NCBI GenBank assembly: GCA_021808525.1
Contig: JAKBBK010000029.1
Location: 1-36,012 of the forward strand
Length of the DNA stretch: 36,012 bases
Direction: 5' to 3'
Source: Pseudomonadota bacterium
Lineage (GTDB): Bacteria > Pseudomonadota > Gammaproteobacteria > Burkholderiales > Burkholderiaceae_C
Under the pieces are notes generated by a model, which saw only the letters and a program-made list of their open reading frames with translations, did no database searches and had not been told where the DNA came from. A program made the translations under genes and the position numbers. Of this stretch, positions 2,744 to 36,012 are shown piece by piece (positions within the stretch are counted from its first letter, which is position 1; every line of letters starts with the position of its first letter).

Positions 2744-5700
2744 CTAGGGCTCCACGCTGGTCGTCTCCAGCACGTACTCGCGCAGCAGGCCCAGCAGCTC
2801 ATCCTCGGAGTAGGGCTTGCCCAGGTAGTGGTTGACCCCCAGCTCCTGCGCGTAATTGCGGTGCTTGTCGGCGATGCGCGAGGTGATCATGATCACCGGC
2901 AGGTGGCGTGTGCGCTCGTCGGCGCGAATGTTGCGCGTGAGGTCGAAGCCGTCCATGCGAGGCATCTCGATGTCGGTGAGCACGACGTCCGGCAGGGTCT
3001 GCTGCAACTGCTCCAGCGCATCCAGCCCGTCCTTGGCCAGCATCACCGTGTAGCCGTTGCGGGTCAGGAAGCGCTGGGTCACGCGGCGCACGGTGATCGA
3101 GTCGTCCACCACCAGCACGGTGTTGGCGCTGGGCAGCGGCGCCTGCGGCAGCAAATGCGCCGCATCGGCGCGCGGCGCGCCGGCCTGCGAGCGCATGCGC
3201 TCGGCCGCCTTGTCGCCGTACACCGCGGCCAGCGCGACCGGGTTGTAGATCAGCACCACGCCGCCGTCGGGCAGCACCGAGATGCCGGCAAGGCCGGGTA
3301 CGCGCGAGAGCTGCGGCCCCAGGTTCTTGACCACCACTTCCTGGTTGCCCAGCACTTCGTCCACATGCAGCGCCAGGCGCTGGGCCGCGCTGCGCACCAG
3401 CACCACCGGCACCGTGCGTCCCGGGGCTTCGCTGCTGGCACCCGATTCGTCGGTCAGCGCGCCCAGCCAGTACAGAGGCAGCTGCTGCCCGGCATGCTCG
3501 AGCTGGCGCGCGCGCAGCGCAGGCTCCAGCTCCGCCGGACGCAGGCGCAGCACCAGGTCGACCAGGCTGGAAGGCACCGCGTGGATGCGCTCGCCGGCAC
3601 GCAGCAGCACCACCTGGGTGACCGCGGTGGTCAGTGGCAGCACCAGCGTGAAGGTGGTGCCACGCCCGGGCACGGAGTCGAGTTCCACGCGTCCGCCCAG
3701 CGCGCGCGTGTCGGTGCGCACCACGTCCAGGCCCACGCCGCGGCCGGCCATCTCGGTGGTCTCGGCGGCGCTGGAAAAGCCCGGCAAGAAGATGATTTCG
3801 CGCAACTGCGCCTGGCTGGGGTGCTCGCCCTCGGGCAGCAGGCCCTGCGCGCGCGCCTTCGCCGCGATGTCGGCATAGTGAAGCCCGGCCCCATCATCTC
3901 CAATGGACACCACGACTTCACTGCCGTCGTGGCGCAGCGCCAGCGTGATGGTGCCCACCGCGGGCTTGCCCGCGCGTTCGCGCTCTTCGGGGCTTTCCAG
4001 CCCGTGCGCCACGGCATTGCGCAAGAGATGCTCGAAGGCAGGCGCCATGCGGTCCAGCACGCCGCGATCGAGTTCGATGGTGCCGCCCTGGATATCCAGG
4101 CGCACCGCCTTGCCCGCGTCCTTGCTGGCCTGGCGAACGGTTCGGTACAGGCGCTCGGAAATGCTGTCGAACTCGACCATGCGCGTGCGCAGCAGGTCGC
4201 GTTGCAGCTCTCGGGTCAGGCGCGACTGGCGCAGCAGGCTGTCCTCGGTGGACTGCAGCGCGCGACCCAGGGAACCCTGCACCAGGGCCAGGTCGTTGAC
4301 CGACTCGGCCATCATGCGCGTGAGTTCCTGGAAACGCGTGAAACGGTCGAATTCCAGCGGGTCGAAGTCGCGCCCGTCGTCGCGCGTGGCCTGGGTGCGC
4401 GCGGCCATCTGGGCATCGGCCTGCAGCTCGATGTCGCGCACCTGCGCGCGCAGGCGCGACAGGTTGTCGCCGAGGTCGCGCACCCCCGAGCGGATGACGT
4501 CGAATTCGCTGTCCAGGCGCGAGCGCGCGATGCTCACCTCGCCGACCTGGTTGACCAGGCGGTCCAGCAGCGCGGCCTGCACACGCACCGGCTGGGCGCG
4601 ACCGAAGGACTGCGCGGAGTCGCCGGGCGCCGCCGGGGCGGCGCCTTCGGGCGCCAGCCCGGCCGGGCCTTGGGCGAGCGCCCCGGGTTGCACCTGGGCT
4701 TCGAGCAGCGCGCGTTCCGGGTGGATCTCGCCGAGTTCGGTCTCGCCTCGGCCGCTGGCCTCGCGCAGCCGTTCGAACCGTGTGTTGATGGCGTCGAAAC
4801 GGGCGATCAGATCCAGCAACGCCGGCTCGTCCGGGCGCGCGTCCTCGCGCGCGGCCAGGGCCTCGATGTCGGATTCCAGCGCATGGGCCATGTCGCCCAG
4901 CGCCATGGTGCCGGCCATGCGGGCACTGCCCTTGAAGGTATGCAGCAGGCGCATGGCCTGGCGCGCGGCCGACAGGTCGGCCGGCCGGGTTTCCCATTCG
5001 CGCAGCGAGCGCCCGAGTTGCGGCAGCAGCTCGGCCGCCTCGAATTCGAAAATGGGGAACAGCTCGGCATCGATGGCGTCGCGCGAGCCCGTTCCCGGCG
5101 CCGCCGCGGTTTCGACGTCCAGCGCGAGTTCGGGCGCGGGTTGCGGCACTTCCGGAGGGATTTCATGGGCCTGCGGCGCTTCGGCCTGCAGCCCGGAAGT
5201 CGCCTGCGCCTCGATTTCCTCGGGGATGTCGAGGACCTCCTGCAATTCCAGATCGTCGGCGGGCGCCGGAACCTGCGCGGGCGGCTGCGCGGTCGCGTCC
5301 TGCGGGGCGGGTTCGGAAGCGGCCTGCGCAGGGGCCCACGGCCAGGTGGCGGGAGCTTGCGGCGCCTCGCCGGGGGCCTGCTCCGGCTCGGGCGCCGCGA
5401 GCGCGGCCGTATCGAAGCCTTCGCTGGCCGCCAGCGCGGCGGCCGTGCGCAGGTCTTCCAGGTGGCGAACCAGCGCCTGCAACTGTTCCAGCAGATCCGG
5501 CTGGGCCGGGCGCAGGAAGCCGGCCGCGAACTGGTGCAGCACGCGGCGCATGTCCTCCACGGTGCGCGCAGGCAATCCCTGCTGCGCCTCGTCGAGCGCC
5601 TCGGGGTGCTCGGACTGTCCCTGCATGGCCTGCTCGAGCAGCTCGGCGAGCTGCTGCACGCTGTGCAGGCCCACGGTGGCCGAACTGCCGCGCAACTGGT

Positions 5701-8700
5701 GGGCCAGCGCGGTCGCGTGTTCGCCGATGGGCGACAGCGGATGATGGCTCCAGGCGGACACCTCCTGGTCGAGGTGGCGCACCAGCTCGTCGGCCTCGTT
5801 CAGATAGATCGTGTGCAGGGCCTGGGGGATGCGCAGCTCGTCGACGAGCTTGACGCCGTCGTCCGGCGTGGGCGCGAGGCTTTCGGGGGGCTCCAGCAGG
5901 CTGGGCGCGGGCAGGGGGGGCTGCGGCTCCTGCACGGCCGACTCGGCGGACTCGCCCAGGTCGAGCAGCGAGGCGTCGGGCCAGGCCGGGGCAGCGAAGG
6001 CGGGCGGCGGCGGGGTCCAGGATGGCTGCGCGGGCTGCTCATGCCAGGGGGGCGTCGCCTCGGACGCGGACCCGGATTCGGAGGAGGTCTCGGCGTCCTG
6101 CCCGGGGGCAGGCTCGGCCGCGGTCTGCTCCGGCCTCTCCGAGGCCACGGACCCTTGCGGCTCCACGGACAGCTCGGACGCCGCCTGCGGCTCGGGCTGT
6201 GGGAAGGGCTCGGGCTCCGCGAAGCCTTCGGGCTCCGCGAAGCTTTCGGGCTCCGCGAAGCTTTCGGACGCGGCGGGCCATTGCGCCAGCGCATGCGCCT
6301 GCGTCTCCAGGGGCAGCTCGGGCGCCGCTTGCGGCTCGGGCTGCGGGAAGGGCTCGGGCTGCCAGGAGGGCTCGGGCTGCGCGAAGCTCTCGGGCGCGGC
6401 GGGCCATTGCGGCAGCGCATGCGCCGGCGTCTCCAGGGGCAGCTCGGGCGCCGCTTGCGGCTCGGGCTGCGGGAAGGGCTCGGGCTGCCAGGAGGGCTCG
6501 GGTTCCACGAAACCCTCGGACGCGGCAGGCAGCTCCGGTGTCGCGTGCGCCTGCGTCTCCAGGGGCAGCTCGGGAGCCGCCTGTGGCTCGGCCTGCGGGG
6601 AGGGCTCACCGAGTTCCAGCGGCCGGCCCTCCCGCAGCGCGCGCGCGGCCTGCACCAGCGCGTCGCTCGAATGCCCGCCCGCGTCGCCGGCGCGCAGTGC
6701 ATGCGCCCAGTTCTCGAGCCGGTCCAGCGCATGCTCGGCAAGATCGAGCAGATCCGGCCGCGGCGTGGAGCCTTCGGCCAGGATCTGGTTGAAGCATTGC
6801 TCCAGGGCCCACGCCCCTTCGGCGAAATCGCGCATGCCCACCATGCGCGCGCTGCCCTTGAGGGTGTGGAAACAGCGCCGCAGCGCGGTCAGGGAATCGT
6901 CGGCCGGGTCGGTGCCGCGCAGGTCGGCGATGCGCTCGCGCCCCTGCGCCACCACTTCGTCGGCCTCGTCGAGGAAGATCTCCACCAGTTCGGGGTCGAC
7001 CGGCGGCTCCGTCTGTTGCGCCTGTGCCGTCTGCTCCGACGGCTCCGACGGCTCGGTCCCCGGCGCGATGTCCGCCTCGGCCGGCGTTGCCGCGACGGGC
7101 TGCGCGGTGCCTGCCGCCGTGCCCAGCAGCAGGGCGTCCAGCGCGGCGCCGTCCTCCTGCATGGCGGCGGCAGCGGAGGCCGCGGAATCCGGCACGCCGG
7201 CGGCCCCGGATTCCAGCGGCGGCAGCAGGGTGTCGGCCTCCTCCAGATCGAGCAGGGCAGGCGCGGGCGCGGCCGGGGCGACGCCGGGGCCCGCGGCCTC
7301 CGGGCTCGCCGACGGCGGAGCCGCGGTTGCTGGCGCCTGCGTGTCCACGCGGGCCGGGGCTTGCGCCACCTGCGGGCGCGACTGCGGCACCACCGGGCGC
7401 AGATCCCCGTTGTGCGGGTCGAACTGGAAGGAGATCTTCGCCAGCTCGGGCTGGTAGCCCAGCATGTCGACCATGAAGCCCAGGGTGCCGATATTGGCCG
7501 CCAGGTGCTCGAAACTGCCCCCGGGCTGACGCGCGGCGCCTTGCTCGGGCGCCACGGCCATCAGGTTCTCCACGCTGTGGCGGATGTAGCCCAGCGCCTG
7601 CGAGCCCACGTCCATGCCCAGCACCGACAGCACTCCACGCATCTGTCCCAGCAGGCGCGGCACGGGTTCGAGGTCGGGGAGGGTCTGCGGGTCGCGGAAA
7701 TAGGCGTCGAGCAGGCGTTCCACCGTACCCATGTCGTGGCGCAGTTCCTGCACCACGGTGCCCAGGGTCTGGTTCTCCGAGACCTGGCGGTACAGCTGCT
7801 CCATCCAGGGCGCGAAGGCCTCGCTGGCGTAGCCTTGCGCGCTGCGCTGCAGGCGCTGCGCCAGCTCGCGCGCGCGGGGCAGAAAATCCGCGTCGTCGGC
7901 GCGGAAGTGCACCAGCGAGGCTTCCAGGAACAGCAGCGCCGTGGCGACTTCCAGCACCCGCTCCGGGGTCAGCAGCGAGCGCTGCTCGCCGATCACCTGC
8001 ACCATGCGCTCGACCGCGGCGGGCAGCACCTCGGCCCCGGCGCTCAGCTGGCGCAGCACCAGGCCGAGTTGCTGCAAGTGTTCCTGCAGGCGCCCGATCC
8101 GGCTGAAATCCCCGTTGCCGATATGGGCCCAGCCGTCCTTGACCTGCACCATGCGCTTGCGCGCCTGCTGCACCACGGCCGGGTCCACCAATCCGAAATG
8201 CGGCTGTTGCCAGTCCACCACCGCCTGCGCGCGCAGTCCGGCGGCCTGGGCCACGGCGCGCAGGATCGCCGGAGCCTCGCGGCCGCGCTCGCGCGCCCGG
8301 GCGAGCGCCTGGTCGCAGAAGAACAGCAGCTCATGGCCCAGGCGCCGCGAGACCTGGGCCTGGCCGGCCAGCATCTGGCGCAGTTGCAGGTTCAGTCGGT
8401 TGCACAGGCGTTTGGCGTAGATGTCGGCTTCGATCAGATCATCGCCCAGTCCCGCGAAAAAGCCCTCGGCGATCCACCACAGCGCCCGCTCCTCGTCGTG
8501 GCTGGCGGCCTGCGCCTGGCGGGCCACGCCCTGCATGGTGGCACTGGCACCGTGCAGGTCGCCCGCGCGCAGGACCTCCAGCAGCGCGCGCTCGTAATCG
8601 CTGCGTGCCTGCACGCCCAGGCCCTGCGTGGCGGATTCCTGCGAGGGAGTCTGCGGCCACTCCCAGGCGAGATCCCACAGGTCCGCGGGGTGGGCCGGCT

Positions 8701-9139
8701 CGCCGCCTGCCAGGTCGGCCAGGCCGCGGTACTGGCGGAACAGCTTGACCGCCGGCTCGTCGCGCCCGCTCGCCCGCGCCTCCAGGTAGTCGAGTACCGC
8801 GTGCAGGCCCGATTCCAGGGCCTCCACCATCGGCGCGTCCAGGCGCTGGGGTTGCTCCAGGGCGCGCATGATCACCCGCTCGGCGGTCTGCAGCACCCGC
8901 GCGCAGCCCGCCTGGCCCATCAGTTCCAGGGCCCCCGTGGCCTGGTGCACATGGGTGCGGGCCTGCAACAGCGCGCTGGTCGCATCCGCTTCGGCGGCCT
9001 GAAGCTGGCCCAGCTGCGCCTGTCGTCGCACCGCGGCGAGCGCGGCCAGCAGGTTGTCGCGAACCTGCTCCAGGACCCACGCCAGGCCCGCGGTGTCGGG
9101 CGGCGTGGTGGACTGCGTGGTCTGGGCGACGTCGTTCAT
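2744..9139 (-). CDS. chpA: ChpA/PilL: giant CheA-type hybrid histidine kinase of the Pil-Chp system
   Basis: This 2131-residue kinase should receive signals from PilJ and PilI and phosphorylate PilG and PilH to control type IV pili. Domains in order: a FimL/ChpA-like N-terminal region (about 1-560), with a degenerate phosphotransfer-like helix around His65 (HVHQATGALELMG); then three Hpt domains with FHTLKGSARM (His758), HQLRGSSATVGL (His1147) and HTFKGSARMAG (His1400); a dimerisation region; a HATPase domain with the N-box Asn1708, GDDGAGL and GRGVGLDVV; a CheW-like domain (about 1835-1970); and a C-terminal receiver (about 2003-2125) with phospho-acceptor Asp2056 in TDIEMPRMDG. Ala/Pro/Glu-rich linkers separate the Hpt domains, and one is built of 42-residue tandem repeats. 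It is the last gene of the operon. Confidence 0.95.
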   Translation of the reverse strand: MNDVAQTTQSTTPPDTAGLAWVLEQVRDNLLAALAAVRRQAQLGQLQAAEADATSALLQARTHVHQATGALELMGQAGCARVLQTAERVIMRALEQPQRLDAPMVEALESGLHAVLDYLEARASGRDEPAVKLFRQYRGLADLAGGEPAHPADLWDLAWEWPQTPSQESATQGLGVQARSDYERALLEVLRAGDLHGASATMQGVARQAQAASHDEERALWWIAEGFFAGLGDDLIEADIYAKRLCNRLNLQLRQMLAGQAQVSRRLGHELLFFCDQALARARERGREAPAILRAVAQAAGLRAQAVVDWQQPHFGLVDPAVVQQARKRMVQVKDGWAHIGNGDFSRIGRLQEHLQQLGLVLRQLSAGAEVLPAAVERMVQVIGEQRSLLTPERVLEVATALLFLEASLVHFRADDADFLPRARELAQRLQRSAQGYASEAFAPWMEQLYRQVSENQTLGTVVQELRHDMGTVERLLDAYFRDPQTLPDLEPVPRLLGQMRGVLSVLGMDVGSQALGYIRHSVENLMAVAPEQGAARQPGGSFEHLAANIGTLGFMVDMLGYQPELAKISFQFDPHNGDLRPVVPQSRPQVAQAPARVDTQAPATAAPPSASPEAAGPGVAPAAPAPALLDLEEADTLLPPLESGAAGVPDSAASAAAAMQEDGAALDALLLGTAAGTAQPVAATPAEADIAPGTEPSEPSEQTAQAQQTEPPVDPELVEIFLDEADEVVAQGRERIADLRGTDPADDSLTALRRCFHTLKGSARMVGMRDFAEGAWALEQCFNQILAEGSTPRPDLLDLAEHALDRLENWAHALRAGDAGGHSSDALVQAARALREGRPLELGEPSPQAEPQAAPELPLETQAHATPELPAASEGFVEPEPSWQPEPFPQPEPQAAPELPLETPAHALPQWPAAPESFAQPEPSWQPEPFPQPEPQAAPELPLETQAHALAQWPAASESFAEPESFAEPEGFAEPEPFPQPEPQAASELSVEPQGSVASERPEQTAAEPAPGQDAETSSESGSASEATPPWHEQPAQPSWTPPPPAFAAPAWPDASLLDLGESAESAVQEPQPPLPAPSLLEPPESLAPTPDDGVKLVDELRIPQALHTIYLNEADELVRHLDQEVSAWSHHPLSPIGEHATALAHQLRGSSATVGLHSVQQLAELLEQAMQGQSEHPEALDEAQQGLPARTVEDMRRVLHQFAAGFLRPAQPDLLEQLQALVRHLEDLRTAAALAASEGFDTAALAAPEPEQAPGEAPQAPATWPWAPAQAASEPAPQDATAQPPAQVPAPADDLELQEVLDIPEEIEAQATSGLQAEAPQAHEIPPEVPQPAPELALDVETAAAPGTGSRDAIDAELFPIFEFEAAELLPQLGRSLREWETRPADLSAARQAMRLLHTFKGSARMAGTMALGDMAHALESDIEALAAREDARPDEPALLDLIARFDAINTRFERLREASGRGETELGEIHPERALLEAQVQPGALAQGPAGLAPEGAAPAAPGDSAQSFGRAQPVRVQAALLDRLVNQVGEVSIARSRLDSEFDVIRSGVRDLGDNLSRLRAQVRDIELQADAQMAARTQATRDDGRDFDPLEFDRFTRFQELTRMMAESVNDLALVQGSLGRALQSTEDSLLRQSRLTRELQRDLLRTRMVEFDSISERLYRTVRQASKDAGKAVRLDIQGGTIELDRGVLDRMAPAFEHLLRNAVAHGLESPEERERAGKPAVGTITLALRHDGSEVVVSIGDDGAGLHYADIAAKARAQGLLPEGEHPSQAQLREIIFLPGFSSAAETTEMAGRGVGLDVVRTDTRALGGRVELDSVPGRGTTFTLVLPLTTAVTQVVLLRAGERIHAVPSSLVDLVLRLRPAELEPALRARQLEHAGQQLPLYWLGALTDESGASSEAPGRTVPVVLVRSAAQRLALHVDEVLGNQEVVVKNLGPQLSRVPGLAGISVLPDGGVVLIYNPVALAAVYGDKAAERMRSQAGAPRADAAHLLPQAPLPSANTVLVVDDSITVRRVTQRFLTRNGYTVMLAKDGLDALEQLQQTLPDVVLTDIEMPRMDGFDLTRNIRADERTRHLPVIMITSRIADKHRNYAQELGVNHYLGKPYSEDELLGLLREYVLETTSVEP
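6165..6600 (-). repeat. 126-bp in-frame tandem repeat inside chpA (42-residue units)
   Basis: Three head-to-tail copies with a period of exactly 126 bases are visible. The landmark gcatgcgcc or gcgtgcgcc recurs at 6291, 6417 and 6543. Each copy encodes about 42 residues rich in Pro, Glu, Ala, Gln and Trp, with cores such as PSWQPEPFPQPEPQAAPELP. The copy nearest 6200 is 48 residues long because a hexapeptide (ESFAEP-like) is itself repeated there. The repeats sit in the linker between the Hpt domains at His758 and His1147 and look like a flexible spacer. Copies are similar enough at DNA level that length variation by recombination or slippage is likely. Confidence 0.9.
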
Positions 9140-28650: not shown

Positions 28651-30084
28651 GTGTCGCTGCTGCCTGCCTTGCTGCTGGCCGTGCTGGCCTTGCTGCTGCT
28701 GGGCGGCGGCGCCCTGTTGCTGGGACAGCTGGCGCGGTCGCGGCGCCTGGCCGAGTCGCGGCACGAGCAGGAACAGGCCCTGGTGCCGGCCCTGGACCGG
28801 CTGGAGCGCGAATTGCGCGCCGCGGTGCAGGACAGCGGGCGGAGCCTGCGCAGCGAGCAGGGCGAACTGTTCGCCCGTTTCCAGCAGACCCTGCTGACCC
28901 AGCAGGCCGAGGCGGCCCGAAGCGCCAACGAGCGGCTCGGCGCCGTGGTGCAGCAGCTGCAGCAGCTGCAAAAGGGCCTCGCCGACACCCTGGTGCAGCA
29001 GGTGGCGGTGCTGAACCAGGGCAACACCCAGGCCCTGCAGGCCTTGCAGCAGCAACTGGGCGAACGCTTCGAGGCGCTGCGCGCGAGCTCGGAGCAGCGC
29101 CAGGCCGAGTTGCGCGCCAGCGTCGAGCAGCGTCTGCGCGAACTGCGCTCGGACAACGAGAACAAGCTCGAGCAGATGCGCCAGACCGTGGACGAGAAGC
29201 TGCACGCCACGCTGGAGCAGCGCCTGGGCGAGAGCTTCCGCCAGGTGGCCGAGCGCCTGGAGCAGGTGCACAGCGGCCTGGGCGAGATGCGCAAGCTGGC
29301 CCAGGGCGTGGGCGACCTGCAGCGCGTGTTCTCCAACGTCAAGTCCCGCGGCATGTTCGGCGAGATCCAGCTTGGCGGGCTGCTCGACCAGGTCTTCACC
29401 CCCGAGCAGTACGGCGCGAACGTGGAGACCGTGCCCGGCAGCGGCGCGCGCGTGGAGTACGCCGTCCGCCTGCCCGGTGACGGCGAGGGCCCGCTGTGGC
29501 TGCCCATCGACGCCAAGTTCCCGCGCGAGGACTACGAGCGCCTGCTGCAGGCGCAGGAGGCCGCCGACAAGCTGGCCGCCGAGGCGGCGGCCAGGGCGCT
29601 GGAGCTGCGCCTGCGCGAGGAGGCCCGCTCCATCCGCTCCAAGTACGTGGCGGCGCCGCACACCACGGACTTCGCGATCCTGTTCCTGCCCACCGAAGGC
29701 CTGTACGCCGAGGCCCTGCGCCGCCCCGGGCTGGTGGAGGCGCTGCAGCGCGAGCAGCGGGTGATGCTGGCCGGGCCGACCACCCTGCTGGCCCTGCTCA
29801 ACAGCCTGCAGATGGGTTTTCGCACCCTGGCGCTGCAGCAGCGTTCCACCGAGGTATGGAAGGTGCTGGGGGCGGTGAAGACCGAATTCGGCAAGTTCGG
29901 CGAGGCCCTGGCCCGGGTGCGCAAGAAGCTGGACGAAGCCGGCAACACCCTGGGAGCGGCCGAGACCCGCACCCGGGCCATGGGTCGCCAGCTCAAGGCG
30001 GTGGAGGCGCTGCCCGTGGAACAGGCGCGCAGCCTGCTGGATTTGCCTCCGGTCAACCCCGAGGACCCTCAAGCCGAGCTATAA
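28651..30084 (+). CDS. rmuC: RmuC family DNA recombination protein
   Basis: RmuC proteins limit rearrangements at inverted repeats and are predicted nucleases of the restriction-endonuclease-like fold. The 477-residue protein has an N-terminal TM segment (about 2-27), a long Gln/Glu/Arg-rich coiled coil (about 35-215) and the RmuC domain. The domain shows GEIQLGGLLDQVFTPEQY, LWLPIDAKFPREDYERLL, TTDFAILFLPTEGLYAEAL and AGPTTLLALLNSLQMGFRTLALQ. I chose GTG at 28651, which follows a GGGGGG stretch by seven bases; a TTG at 28636 is an alternative. It follows the dehydrogenase by 18 bases. Confidence 0.93.
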   Translation: MSLLPALLLAVLALLLLGGGALLLGQLARSRRLAESRHEQEQALVPALDRLERELRAAVQDSGRSLRSEQGELFARFQQTLLTQQAEAARSANERLGAVVQQLQQLQKGLADTLVQQVAVLNQGNTQALQALQQQLGERFEALRASSEQRQAELRASVEQRLRELRSDNENKLEQMRQTVDEKLHATLEQRLGESFRQVAERLEQVHSGLGEMRKLAQGVGDLQRVFSNVKSRGMFGEIQLGGLLDQVFTPEQYGANVETVPGSGARVEYAVRLPGDGEGPLWLPIDAKFPREDYERLLQAQEAADKLAAEAAARALELRLREEARSIRSKYVAAPHTTDFAILFLPTEGLYAEALRRPGLVEALQREQRVMLAGPTTLLALLNSLQMGFRTLALQQRSTEVWKVLGAVKTEFGKFGEALARVRKKLDEAGNTLGAAETRTRAMGRQLKAVEALPVEQARSLLDLPPVNPEDPQAEL

Positions 30085-30149
30085 AGGGGCATGGGGGTGC
30101 CTGCCCGGCCCTCCCAGGGAATGGCCGTTCCCGCAACCCAGGAGCCCCC

Positions 30150-32579
30150 ATGCAGGCACAAGACATCAGCCTCGACGTCCTGGCGGAGAAATACGCCAAG
30201 GACGGCGAGCGCAGCCCCGAGGATATCCAGCAGCGCGTTGCGCGCGCGCTGGCCGCGGTGGAGCCCGACCCCGCCGCCGCCCGGGCGCGTTTCCTGGACG
30301 CCATGCAGCGCGGCTTCGTGCCGGCCGGACGCATCATGTCGGCCGCCGGCAGCGGCATCCAGGCCACGCTGATCAACTGTTTCGTGCAGCCCGTGGGCGA
30401 CTCGGTGTCGGAGGCCGTGGACGGCAAGCCCGGCATCTACCGCGCCCTGGCCGAGGCGGCCGAGACCATGCGCCGCGGCGGGGGCGTGGGCTACGACTTC
30501 AGCCGCATCCGCCCCGCCGGGGCCCTGGTCGGGGCCACCCACAGCCGCGCCAGCGGCCCGCTCTCCTTCATGCGGGTGTTCGACGCTTCCTGCCAGACGG
30601 TGGAGTCGGCCGGGGCCCGACGCGGCGCGCAGATGGGGGTGCTGCGCATCGACCACCCCGACATCGAGGCCTTCATCCACGCCAAGGATGGCGGAGCCTT
30701 TCGCAACTTCAACCTCTCGGTGGGCGTGGGCGACGCCTTCATGCAGGCCGTGCGCGACGATGCCGAGGTGGATCTGGTGCACCGCGCGCGTCCCGGGGAC
30801 GAGCAGATCGCCCACGGCGCGCATCAGCGCGACGACGGGCTGTGGGTGTACCGCCGGGTGCGCGCGCGCGGGCTGTGGGAACAGATCATGCAGTGCACCT
30901 ACGACCACGCCGAGCCGGGCATCCTGTTCCTCGACGCGGCCAACCGCGACAACAACCTGCATGACTGCGAGACCTTCGAGGCCACCAACCCCTGCGCCGA
31001 GGAATTCCTGCCCGATTACGGCTGCTGCTGCCTGGGCTCGCTGGACCTGACCCGCTTCGTCGTCGACCCCTTCGAGCCCGGTGCCCGTTTCGACATGGCC
31101 GGCATGCGCGAGGTGGCGCGCACCGCCGTGCGCATGCTCGACGACGTGCTCGACATCACTTTCTGGCCGCTGCCCCAGCAGGCCGCCGAGGCGCGCGACA
31201 AGCGCCGCGTGGGCCTGGGCTTCCTGGGCCTGGGCGACGCCTGCATCGAGCTCGGCCTGCGCTACGACAGCGCGCAGGCGCGCGCCTTCGCCGCCGAGAT
31301 GGCGCGCAACCTGCGCGACGCCGCCTACGAGGCCTCGGTGGAACTCGCCCGGGAAAAGGGCGCCTTCCCCCGCTTCGACGCCGACAAGTACCTGGCCGGC
31401 GGATTCGCCAGCCGCCTGCCGCAGGAGCTGCGCGAACGCATCCGCGCGCATGGCCTGCGCAACTCCCACCTGCTCGCGGTGGCTCCCACCGGCACCATCA
31501 GCCTGGCCTTCGCCGACAATGCCAGCAATGGCATCGAGCCTGCCTTCTCCTGGGTGTACACGCGCAGGAAGCGCATGCCCGACGACACCACGCGCGAGTA
31601 CGAGGTGGCCGACCACGCCTGGCGTCTTTGGCGCCAGCGCGGGGGCGACACGGCCCGGCTGCCGCCGGCCTTCGTCACCGCGCTGGAAATGCCCGCGCGC
31701 GAGCACATGCAGATGCTGGCCGCCGTGCAGCCCTACGTCGACACCGGGATTTCCAAGACCGTCAACGTCGCCGAGGACTACCCCTTCGAGGATTTCCAGG
31801 ACCTGTACCTGGAGGCCTGGCAGGCCGGCTTGAAGGGCCTGGCCACCTACCGCCCCAACACCGTGCTGGGCGCGGTGCTGCAGGCGGCGCCTGCAGCCGG
31901 GGCGGCCCCGGAGGCGCCGGCGCTGCCCGACGTCGACCCGCTGACCCGGCGCATCGAGGGCCGTCCCGGTGGCGACCTCCAGGCGGTGACCAGCAAGGTC
32001 AGCTACATGACCGCCGAGGGCGGCAAGACGGTGTACCTGTCGATCTCCTTCGCCGAGGTCGAGGGCCTGCTCGACGGCCAGCCCATCCGCATCGAGCGCC
32101 CCATCGAGTTCTTCATGCCGGCGGGCCAGCGCGACGAAGGGCAGCAGTGGATCGCCTCCAACATGCGCCTGCTGTCGCTGGTGGCGCGCTCGGGCGGATC
32201 CATCGCCAAGTCCCTGCTCAACATGCGCGAGGTGGTGTGGGACAAGGGGCCGGTGCGCTGCGGCGAGGTGATCAAGTCCGACGGCAGCCGCGCGCCCCGG
32301 TTCCACCAGTCCGAGGTGGCCGCGATCGCCTTCGCGCTGCAGGAAATGCTCAAGCGCCGCGGCTTCCTGCGCGAGGACGGGCGCGAGCAGGCGCTGCGCC
32401 AGCTCGCGCAGCGCCAGTCGCAGCCCCAGGCCCTGCACATCGATCTGGACAAGGCCGAGGCCCTGCCTCAACTGCTGTCGGGCGGGCGCATCTGCCCCGA
32501 ATGCGGCGGCCCCTACCTGCGCAAGGTCGACGGCTGCGAGCGCTGCGACAACTGCGGGTACATCGGCAGTTGCGGATAG
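30150..32579 (+). CDS. nrdJ: Class II adenosylcobalamin-dependent ribonucleotide reductase
   Basis: NrdJ makes deoxyribonucleotides using a thiyl radical generated by adenosylcobalamin, with or without oxygen. The 809-residue protein has the redox cysteine Cys77 (LINCFVQP), RRGGGVGYDFSRIRP, the active-site NPCAE block (Asn280, Cys282, Glu284), the YGCCCLGSLDL cysteines, and APTGTISLAFADNASNGIEPAFSW. A C-terminal cysteine-rich zinc-ribbon-like tail (CPECGG, then CERCDNCGYIGSCG) probably provides the re-reducing thiols. AGGAG precedes the ATG by five bases. I see no cobalamin riboswitch in the 65 bases after rmuC. It converges with tlpA. Confidence 0.95.
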   Translation: MQAQDISLDVLAEKYAKDGERSPEDIQQRVARALAAVEPDPAAARARFLDAMQRGFVPAGRIMSAAGSGIQATLINCFVQPVGDSVSEAVDGKPGIYRALAEAAETMRRGGGVGYDFSRIRPAGALVGATHSRASGPLSFMRVFDASCQTVESAGARRGAQMGVLRIDHPDIEAFIHAKDGGAFRNFNLSVGVGDAFMQAVRDDAEVDLVHRARPGDEQIAHGAHQRDDGLWVYRRVRARGLWEQIMQCTYDHAEPGILFLDAANRDNNLHDCETFEATNPCAEEFLPDYGCCCLGSLDLTRFVVDPFEPGARFDMAGMREVARTAVRMLDDVLDITFWPLPQQAAEARDKRRVGLGFLGLGDACIELGLRYDSAQARAFAAEMARNLRDAAYEASVELAREKGAFPRFDADKYLAGGFASRLPQELRERIRAHGLRNSHLLAVAPTGTISLAFADNASNGIEPAFSWVYTRRKRMPDDTTREYEVADHAWRLWRQRGGDTARLPPAFVTALEMPAREHMQMLAAVQPYVDTGISKTVNVAEDYPFEDFQDLYLEAWQAGLKGLATYRPNTVLGAVLQAAPAAGAAPEAPALPDVDPLTRRIEGRPGGDLQAVTSKVSYMTAEGGKTVYLSISFAEVEGLLDGQPIRIERPIEFFMPAGQRDEGQQWIASNMRLLSLVARSGGSIAKSLLNMREVVWDKGPVRCGEVIKSDGSRAPRFHQSEVAAIAFALQEMLKRRGFLREDGREQALRQLAQRQSQPQALHIDLDKAEALPQLLSGGRICPECGGPYLRKVDGCERCDNCGYIGSCG

Positions 32580-34858: not shown

Positions 34859-35581
34859 TCATCCCGCGCGAAGCGTGAAGCTCTCGAACAGGCCCTGCAG
34901 GCGCGCAAGGGTCGAGGGCGCCGGGTAATCGGGCCCGATCGGGCCCAGGGGGCCCAGGGGGCCCACGGGCCGCGCCAGCTGCAGCGCATAGTGGCGCGCT
35001 CCCCGCGCCGCGACGCCGTCGGCCAGGCGCAGCAAGGCCGCGTCGTCCAGCTGGGCAGGGTGCGCGGTGGTGCGCAGCTCGTGGGGGACGCCGGAGTCGA
35101 GCAGCGCAAGCAGGCTCTGGCGTACCGATGCGGCGCTGCCGGCCACGCCGGTGATGCGCTGGTGCAGCGCATCGTCGTCCAGCGGAGCCTTGACGTCCAG
35201 GCCCACCCAGTCCGCGCGCGACAGCACGGCGCGCAGCCGGCGCGGATACATGCCGGCGCTGTGCAGCCCCACGGCGAAGCCCATGGCGCGGACCTCGTCC
35301 ATGGCCTGGGGCAGGGACCCATCGAGCGTGGGCTCGCCACCGCTGAACACCACGGCGTCGAGCAGGCCGCGGCGGCCTTGCAGCCAGGTTCCCAGCGCGG
35401 ACCAGTCCGGCCCCGCGGGCGCGTCGCGCGCCTGCAGGTGCTGGTTGTGGCAGTAGGCGCAGCGCCAGGGACAGCCCTGCAGGTAGACCACGGCGCTGAG
35501 CTTGCCGGGGTAATCGATGCTCGTGAAGGGTGTCAGGCCGCCGATGCGCGGCCCGGCAGGCGCCGGGGCCGTGGCGGGCAT
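34859..35581 (-). CDS. nrdG: Anaerobic ribonucleotide reductase activating protein (radical SAM)
   Basis: NrdG uses a 4Fe-4S cluster and S-adenosylmethionine to create the glycyl radical on NrdD. The 240-residue protein has GLTPFTSIDYPGKLSAVVY, the radical SAM motif GCPWRCAYCHNQHL (Cys37, Cys41, Cys44), and VFSGGEPTLDGSLPQAM, which contacts SAM. It belongs to the longer NrdG/PflA-like group; E. coli NrdG has about 154 residues. Near the C-terminus it has a collagen-like GPLGPLGPIGP run. The ATG at 35581 shares one base with the stop of the small glycyl-radical gene (TGATG). The longer frame to 35689 lies inside that gene. Confidence 0.94.
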   Translation of the reverse strand: MPATAPAPAGPRIGGLTPFTSIDYPGKLSAVVYLQGCPWRCAYCHNQHLQARDAPAGPDWSALGTWLQGRRGLLDAVVFSGGEPTLDGSLPQAMDEVRAMGFAVGLHSAGMYPRRLRAVLSRADWVGLDVKAPLDDDALHQRITGVAGSAASVRQSLLALLDSGVPHELRTTAHPAQLDDAALLRLADGVAARGARHYALQLARPVGPLGPLGPIGPDYPAPSTLARLQGLFESFTLRAG

Positions 35582-35769
35582 CAGGGGCGGCAAGGGCCTT
35601 CCTCGAAGCAGATGCGCTCCTGGAACTCGCCGCGCTTGCCGATGTTGAACGAGGCCACCGGGCGGTGGTAGCCCATCACGCGGGTCCACACCTCGCAGCG
35701 CTGGCGTTCCTCGTCGCGCAGCGTGATGGCGGGGGTCCGGGCGGCTTCGGTCTGGGCGGTGTCGTGCAT
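35581..35769 (-). CDS. Separate glycyl-radical domain of class III ribonucleotide reductase (62 residues)
   Basis: This 62-residue protein matches the extreme C-terminus of fused NrdD enzymes: CEVWTRVMGYHRPVASFNIG, then KRGEFQERICFEE. The Gly in RVMGYH (Gly33) aligns with the radical-bearing glycine of NrdD (RVCGY in E. coli). A ribosome binding site (GGAGA) stands eight bases before the ATG at 35769. The first 20 residues are unlike NrdD. It lies between the large nrdD chain (46 bases upstream, in a different frame) and nrdG (one-base overlap). I infer that it docks with the large chain and is activated by NrdG. Confidence 0.85.
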   Translation of the reverse strand: MHDTAQTEAARTPAITLRDEERQRCEVWTRVMGYHRPVASFNIGKRGEFQERICFEEGPCRP

Positions 35770-35815
35770 GGTGGCGTTCTCCGGTGTGGGTCTGGTGTAC
35801 GGGCGGGCGATGAAC

Positions 35816-36012
35816 TCAGGCCGCCTCGCGCTGCTTGCGGGCCAGGATCTCGGCATCGCATCGCGGGCAGAATTCGTGGTGGCCCGGCAGGTAGCCGTGG
35901 CTGGGGCAGATCGAGAAGGTCGGGGTGACGGTGATGTAGGGCAGGCGAAAGCGGGTCAGCGCGCGCCGCACCAGATCGCGGCAGGCCTCGGCGCTGGACA
36001 GGCGCTCGCGCA
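35816..36012 (-). CDS. nrdD: Class III anaerobic ribonucleoside-triphosphate reductase, C-terminal end of large chain
   Basis: Only the last 65 codons are in the window; the gene enters from the right edge. The visible end reads RFRLPYITVTPTFSICPSHG, then a second block HHEFCPRCDAE, matching the NrdD region with the substrate-domain end and zinc ribbon (CxxH and CxxC). The chain stops at 35816, fifteen residues after the last Cys. In most NrdD proteins the zinc ribbon is followed without a break by the glycyl-radical loop; here that loop is in the next gene. The stop is a clean TGA, and the downstream gene has its own ribosome binding site, so this is not obviously a frameshift. Confidence 0.9.
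   Translation of the reverse strand, partial: RERLSSAEACRDLVRRALTRFRLPYITVTPTFSICPSHGYLPGHHEFCPRCDAEILARKQREAA

Follow-up and report, generated by a model that had tools for sequence, protein, structure and literature searches.

A contig of a Burkholderiales draft genome, analyzed here over its whole length of 36,012 nucleotides (the window), carries at its right end the genes of what is, with a probability of about 0.88, a class III ribonucleotide reductase (RNR) made of two chains; its radical loop is predicted from sequence to sit on a small, separate subunit. The earlier note had proposed such an enzyme, and the proposal gains strong support because the split is conserved, some genomes have the two genes at separate places, relatives with a fused chain are nested among split ones, and Gly33 of the small chain aligns with a known radical glycine. 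The split form is widespread and very likely a two-chain enzyme, with an ordinary chemistry and an unusual architecture.

The locus in the window

The genes concerned are read from the minus strand in the order nrdD 3' end, 62-codon gene, nrdG2. The end of nrdD (35816 to 36012) encodes the zinc ribbon and a short tail and closes with a TGA at 35818 to 35816. The remainder of the gene was found on a second contig (G000:C137) of this draft genome, identical to the window end over a 127-bp overlap. That contig encodes an ATP-cone, an MCCR finger loop, and the first part of the zinc ribbon. The Pfam NRDD match is continuous over the pieces, covering model positions 2 to 516 on C137, 480 to 529 in the window part of the large chain and 531 to 561 in the small chain, together 2 to 561. 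The large chain scores 1,097 bits against PRK08270 (cut-off 548), and its matches to PF13597 and PF03477 correspond to the NRDD catalytic domain and the ATP-cone. A class II identity for this chain was rejected, as the best model is the class III PRK08270 and class II models match the first 134 residues only (the ATP-cone region), far under cut-off. The chain ends in ...CPSHGYLPGHHEFCPRCDAEILARKQREAA, 13 residues past the last ribbon cysteine. Its ending after the zinc ribbon, as read in the earlier note, is borne out: no RVxGY loop follows the ribbon, the motif is absent from the large NrdD of this genome with the C137 part included, and the possibility that a complete loop lay upstream is thereby answered. 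At the window locus, the polypeptide that forms the barrel does not hold the radical loop.

The small gene (35581 to 35769, minus strand) starts with the ATG at 35769, runs for 62 codons, and ends with a TGA at 35583 to 35581. It lies 46 bp from the nrdD stop and in a different frame, and a Shine-Dalgarno-like GGAGA read from the sequence at 35778 to 35782 (minus strand) stands 8 nt 5' of its ATG; a control with internal ATGs is described below. A separate 62-residue radical-loop gene with a 46-base gap, another frame, and its own GGAGA had been claimed, and each of these points was found as described. The neighboring nrdG2 (34859 to 35581, minus strand) likely begins at an ATG overlapping the small-gene stop (TGATG), and its product scores 184 bits against TIGR02495 (NrdG2; cut-off 131), so that a cognate activase adjoins the pair. 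Two other features of the window were observed in passing. A class II (adenosylcobalamin) RNR is encoded at 29496 to 32579 on the plus strand, with a match to NrdJ_Z above cut-off that starts at residue 229; the distance from its end to the class III genes is about 2.3 kb, and its orientation is opposite to theirs. At 2744 to 9139 on the minus strand, a 2,131-residue CheA-like protein carries a response-regulator domain at its C terminus.

The small chain, MHDTAQTEAARTPAITLRDEERQRCEVWTRVMGYHRPVASFNIGKRGEFQERICFEEGPCRP, matches NRDD (PF13597) above cut-off with an E value of 2.8e-7, and no NCBIfam model matches it at cut-off. Chance can be excluded because of this match and because the same two-gene layout recurs in 77 of 79 distinct genome-record loci. 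The end-to-end comparison with fused NrdD that had been suggested agrees: in a profile of 17 small proteins aligned to residues 616 to 645 of Thermotoga maritima NrdD (PDB 4coi), Gly33 falls on Gly621 with R-V-x-G-Y in register, at an E value of 0.66. Gly621 is given as the radical residue of the T. maritima enzyme in the available part of a published study (PMC4493059), and Gly33 is the predicted radical residue here. Membership of the GrcA/YfiD family was ruled out for the small chain, since no match to the pyruvate formate-lyase (PFL)-type glycyl-radical family was found and PF13597 was the sole match at E values up to 0.1.

The two genes of a relative (L051), modeled with AlphaFold2 as one linked chain, gave a pLDDT of 85 and a pTM of 0.83. 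The radical-loop blocks scored 79 to 82 and the junction 62 to 64; residues 386 to 401, next to the MCCR motif at 380 to 383, were under 50, which makes this stretch unreliable. The 36 best PDB matches of the model in Foldseek were all class III RNRs. With fused homologues in its alignment, the linked model indicates compatibility and is not independent proof of assembly.

Conservation of the split and separate translation

A survey of Burkholderiales, as delimited by GTDB, for the same split, as the earlier note had advised, covered 399 genomes, of which 106 carried the small domain at 114 places, every one of which was read. Separate open reading frames adjoin the large nrdD at 95 of the 114 places, and at 90 the genes are split with nrdG next. 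Fusion was seen at six places, which belong to a single genus (f38 g47). Two apparent fusions, with open frames of 778 (G396) and 583 (G152) amino acids, proved to be split when the loci were read. The other 13 places have no adjacent large gene: four show nrdG without a neighboring large gene in view (G008, G057, G065, and G153), two are cut by a contig end (G156 with nrdG, G362 without), and seven lack both a large nrdD and nrdG in their vicinity, among them G173, whose copy is beside decayed remnants. The large nrdD of G156 is on another contig. In the G153 draft genome (92% complete, 7% contamination), the small gene and nrdG were present (L207, G153:C351) and a large nrdD was not found. 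In G173, the radical-domain gene (L173, G173:C25) lies by a partial nrdG and what is left of a decayed large nrdD, and an intact set is present elsewhere in the genome.

The split extends to Alpha- and Gammaproteobacteria and Campylobacterota, wider than the earlier note supposed. Genome records contained at least 581 relatives; the best 80 of these by similarity to split-type queries gave 79 distinct loci, with 77 split, one with only nrdG nearby, and one with neither. The 13 plasmid regions read, from 28 matching plasmid records in all, comprised ten split, two fused (Acidiphilium and Actinomyces), and one stand-alone case. Of 398 sampled Pseudomonadota genomes, 16 exceeded the PRK08270 cut-off, 13 of them split (including the window genome and G008) and three fused. 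The bait of the scans consisted of loop peptides, by which copies lacking the glycine would be missed. Neisseria bacilliformis NrdD is a well-studied relative according to the available text of PMC4493059, and no named Neisseria locus was among those recovered.

The form of the large chain is equally consistent. A zinc ribbon and no RVxGY were found in 185 of 187 split large chains, the two exceptions being L041, whose end is frame-broken, and L202, whose end is masked. The tail past the ribbon is 8 to 35 residues long in split chains; in fused chains, 8 to 16 residues separate ribbon and loop in ten of eleven, where measurable. A tree built from 76 rows by a quick method nests the fused chains among the split ones and requires five changes, at least three of them forced by well-supported branches; fused rows L141, L144, and L145 sit on long branches or are unsure in placement. 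Because sampling went mainly through the small domain, split chains are overrepresented. The tree is compatible with an old split and later re-fusions, or with repeated fission. Re-fusion, if that is what occurred, would suggest that the two chains work together.

Whether the pair might be translated into one fused chain, by programmed frameshift or stop read-through, can be judged from 179 distinct junctions. The three relative frames occur 54, 56, and 69 times, so that 54 junctions are in frame as such a mechanism might have it, and the near-random distribution speaks against it. So do the gaps, which range from -41 to 376 nt (median, 34) and include some overlaps, and the varied stop codons (125 TGA, 35 TAA, and 19 TAG). 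Nearly every small gene has a start site of its own: the starts are ATG in 177 cases and GTG in two, and a Shine-Dalgarno match of at least 5 nt precedes 88% of the 179, an upper figure because the start picker favors such sites, compared to 2% of 4,783 ATGs inside large genes. In some genomes, moreover, the genes lie apart. The large gene of G008 is 9 kb from the small-nrdG pair on one contig, with hemN and fnr-like genes on the opposite strand between them; the large and small genes occupy different contigs in G057, which belongs to the genus of G008, and in a MAG of the Holosporaceae; and in G065 a gene of about 2 kb, radical-SAM-like by eye, separates the two. A fused product from frameshift or read-through is accordingly very improbable. 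A sequencing or assembly error, or a decayed pseudogene, has still less to commend it. The window does come from a draft assembly (144 contigs, 90% complete), and nrdD is interrupted there by a contig boundary. That boundary lies upstream of the split, though, and the same split occurs in complete isolate replicons (Cupriavidus necator H16 pHG1) and at 95 of the 114 census places. The 179 junctions exclude the possibility, raised beforehand, that resequencing would fuse the frames, and with the genes lying apart they rule out error, frameshift, and read-through alike. As far as sequence can tell, the small gene is a separate gene with its own translation start, conserved across genomes, and its glycine is homologous to that of fused NrdD.

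Radical-domain copies apart from nrdD

Besides a large nrdD and the small gene that belongs to it, six census genomes contain one or two extra small genes away from any nrdD or nrdG (G258 with two copies, G362, G247, G335, G106, and G078; in G078, the nrdD-small pair was also seen without nrdG beside it). The co-occurrence in all six has a P value of 0.0002 against 100 carriers in 399 genomes, and of 0.0002 to 0.0003 for 95 to 105 carriers, which is not a strict probability, as the genomes are related and three belong to one family. The G362 copy is 225 bp from a contig end and has the same downstream neighbor as three others; in the family of G362, 38 of 67 genomes have the domain. Stand-alone copies were also seen in two further members of that family, G1035 and G1043, by genes that look, by eye, lysozyme- and spanin-like.

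In one genus (g152, Parasutterella and kin, including Parasutterella secunda and Candidatus Aphodousia), seven of nine genomes have exactly two copies and two have none. In all seven, one copy is in nrdD-small-nrdG order and the other is without nrdD or nrdG. The stand-alone frame starts 141 to 204 bp from a divergent gene in five of the seven, and the one such neighbor tested matched adenine phosphoribosyltransferase; a divergent phosphoribosyltransferase-like gene adjoins the stand-alone gene in loci L389, L391, L396, L397, and L399 of the Parasutterella/Aphodousia genus. Magnetospirillum fulvum has a stand-alone copy directly upstream of class I nrdA and nrdB (L115, 3647 to 7257) and a full class III set besides. 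Among 199 genomes of its order, ten have the domain and M. fulvum is the only one with two copies. A stand-alone copy of Allochromatium vinosum is on plasmid pALVIN01, the replicon that was searched. A large nrdD accompanied by a small gene of its own was present in every one of the 15 cellular genomes counted that carry a stand-alone copy. Left out of this count were the A. vinosum plasmid, genomes with nrdG beside the copy, G173 (decayed remnants), and G1036, whose second copy adjoins a broken large gene.

Viral copies are numerous. IMG/VR yielded 135 relatives, and in none of the best 80 (L266 to L345) did the fetched flanks, of up to 5 kb, contain a large nrdD or nrdG; at least 900 bp of upstream sequence was available in 68, the other 12 being nearer a contig end, and the 80 represent 68 distinct places. 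In all 30 whole viral records searched, of the 80, NRDD matched the radical domain only, once each. NrdG2 was absent from 26 of 26 viral records, in a search for the NrdG2 type only and in records that may be fragments. The 26 viral loci of at least 10 kb gave 23 PHROG matches for their longest open reading frames, 12 of the 26 being head, tail, connector, or packaging proteins and the remainder integrase, helicase, DNA polymerase, methyltransferase, reverse transcriptase, or unknown. A single terminase family, a narrow test, was matched in 7 of the 26 records, and an initial check of neighbor genes used ten chosen by eye and was thus biased. The G335 copy, near an endolysin gene, is identical to one in an IMG/VR record (L168, L313). 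Reverse transcriptase genes (phrog_1423) were noted in two of the viral loci, at 1707 to 2807 in L283 and 1958 to 3052 in L328.

RVxGYxRP is kept in all 80 viral loci, and the cysteine preceding it in 76, with the reservation that a loop-peptide bait favors the motif. The dN/dS ratio is about 0.17 for phage copies (110 of 225 pairs, the rest saturated) and 0.19 for operon copies, with synonymous sites near saturation. All seven proteins scanned, that of the window and six from phages or prophages, match phrog_4132, at E values of 3e-5 to 7e-11; this family has no assigned function, and its profile is longer (179 positions). An annotated phage collection held one weak match for the window protein and two for a phage protein, so the domain is rare among the phages deposited there. 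In the accessible part of a phage RNR survey, split nrdD genes are treated as cases of introns, inteins, or fragments (PMC3653736).

A probable two-chain reductase and candidate spare subunits

We infer that the two chains assemble and that the radical forms on the small one. The large chain would supply the ATP-cone, the catalytic barrel with its cysteine finger loop, and the zinc ribbon, and the 62-residue chain would put its RVMGYHRP loop into the barrel. NrdG2 with S-adenosylmethionine would then form a glycyl radical on Gly33, from which the catalytic thiyl radical would follow. Oxygen cleaves glycyl-radical enzymes at the radical, and for this reason the small chain alone would need replacing after exposure to air. 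The stand-alone copies of Parasutterella and kin, of M. fulvum, and of phages would in that case be spare radical subunits for a host large chain and NrdG. The balance of evidence tips modestly toward a replaceable, GrcA-like role of this kind, with exchange and repair of the subunit. It is an even bet whether the domain also acts as a mobile cofactor, phage copies of about 45 to 95 codons joining the host large chain, being charged by host NrdG, and sustaining or restoring the anaerobic supply of deoxynucleoside triphosphates (dNTPs) during infection, and some bacteria keeping a second copy for recovery from oxygen. The stand-alone copies in bacteria and phages are new evidence for exchange and not proof of it.

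Two other accounts of these copies deserve weighing. Neutral gene fission could have left a stable two-chain enzyme whose small chain is never exchanged, the stand-alone copies serving other roles. That the sole copy lies between nrdD and nrdG in most census genomes (90 of 114 places) is what such a history would leave behind, and fused relatives exist, so the split is not required for function; it accounts less readily for stand-alone copies that are kept in all seven domain-bearing genomes of one genus and on many phage contigs, or for the split nrdD present in 15 of 15 counted cellular carriers, and we consider it rather unlikely. Less probable again is that the phage copies are inhibitors or decoys, occupying the host large chain or NrdG and so redirecting or blocking host dNTP synthesis. 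The radical domain standing alone, with no large nrdD (30 of 30 records searched, of 80) and no NrdG2 (0 of 26), would suit a decoy, yet a decoy would not need the glycine, while RVxGYxRP is retained in all 80 viral loci (the bait favoring the motif) at a dN/dS like that of operon copies.

The proposed replaceable radical subunit has partial parallels among known systems. Single-chain NrdD (T. maritima 4coi; PRK08270/NF006126) shares the barrel, ATP-cone, finger loop, zinc ribbon, glycyl-radical loop, and NrdG, and differs in that the loop is here on its own gene and, as we infer, its own protein. To our knowledge, the radical glycine lies within the catalytic chain in the solved class III RNRs (T4, T. 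maritima, Prevotella copri, and Streptococcus thermophilus). Known structures place this glycine about 5 Å from the finger-loop cysteine. GrcA/YfiD and phage T4 Y06I, which act on PFL, resemble the present case as small free-standing glycyl-radical domains that complete a large enzyme, with a phage example known, in what is available of PMC8683613. The same portion of that source names PFL as the only enzyme with validated spare parts and allows that other glycyl-radical enzymes might have them (PMC8683613). The sequence family is a different one, however, and the enzyme here is an RNR whose large chain has no radical loop of its own, a lack that would make the small chain a constant requirement and not just a means of repair. 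A free-standing gene apart from the enzyme, as with GrcA/YfiD, is seen for the stand-alone copies and not for the window copy. Class II NrdJa/NrdJb likewise has an RNR catalytic chain divided over two genes toward the C terminus, as described in the accessible text of PMC9669993, but it uses adenosylcobalamin. No description of a class III RNR with its radical loop on a separate gene, or of a phage-encoded one, was met in the accessible portions of the literature searched, and an earlier description is possible.

If the two-chain reading is correct, a phage family of unknown function would gain one, and labels or variants could be placed in the radical loop by mixing chains. The small genes are already on record in public annotation: NCBI names them nrdD, as the earlier note had guessed. 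C. necator H16 has a 676-residue large chain (76.2 kDa) and a 66-residue gene annotated nrdD (H16_RS32675), and Gly650 of its large chain sits in the HGY of the zinc ribbon. The H16 strain free of pHG1 is described as growing poorly under anaerobic conditions on nitrate, a defect relieved by cobalamin (PMC2864759). A 1999 paper on Alcaligenes eutrophus H16 reportedly gave an NrdD of 76.2 kDa and perhaps discussed Gly650. Work in which the 676-residue H16 chain was taken for the complete NrdD would have been done without the radical loop, a possible blind spot. In Cupriavidus metallidurans, the published gene pair is Rmet_5137 and Rmet_5139, one locus number being skipped in the available part of that source (PMC2864759); we located the small gene between the two, and it is probably Rmet_5138.
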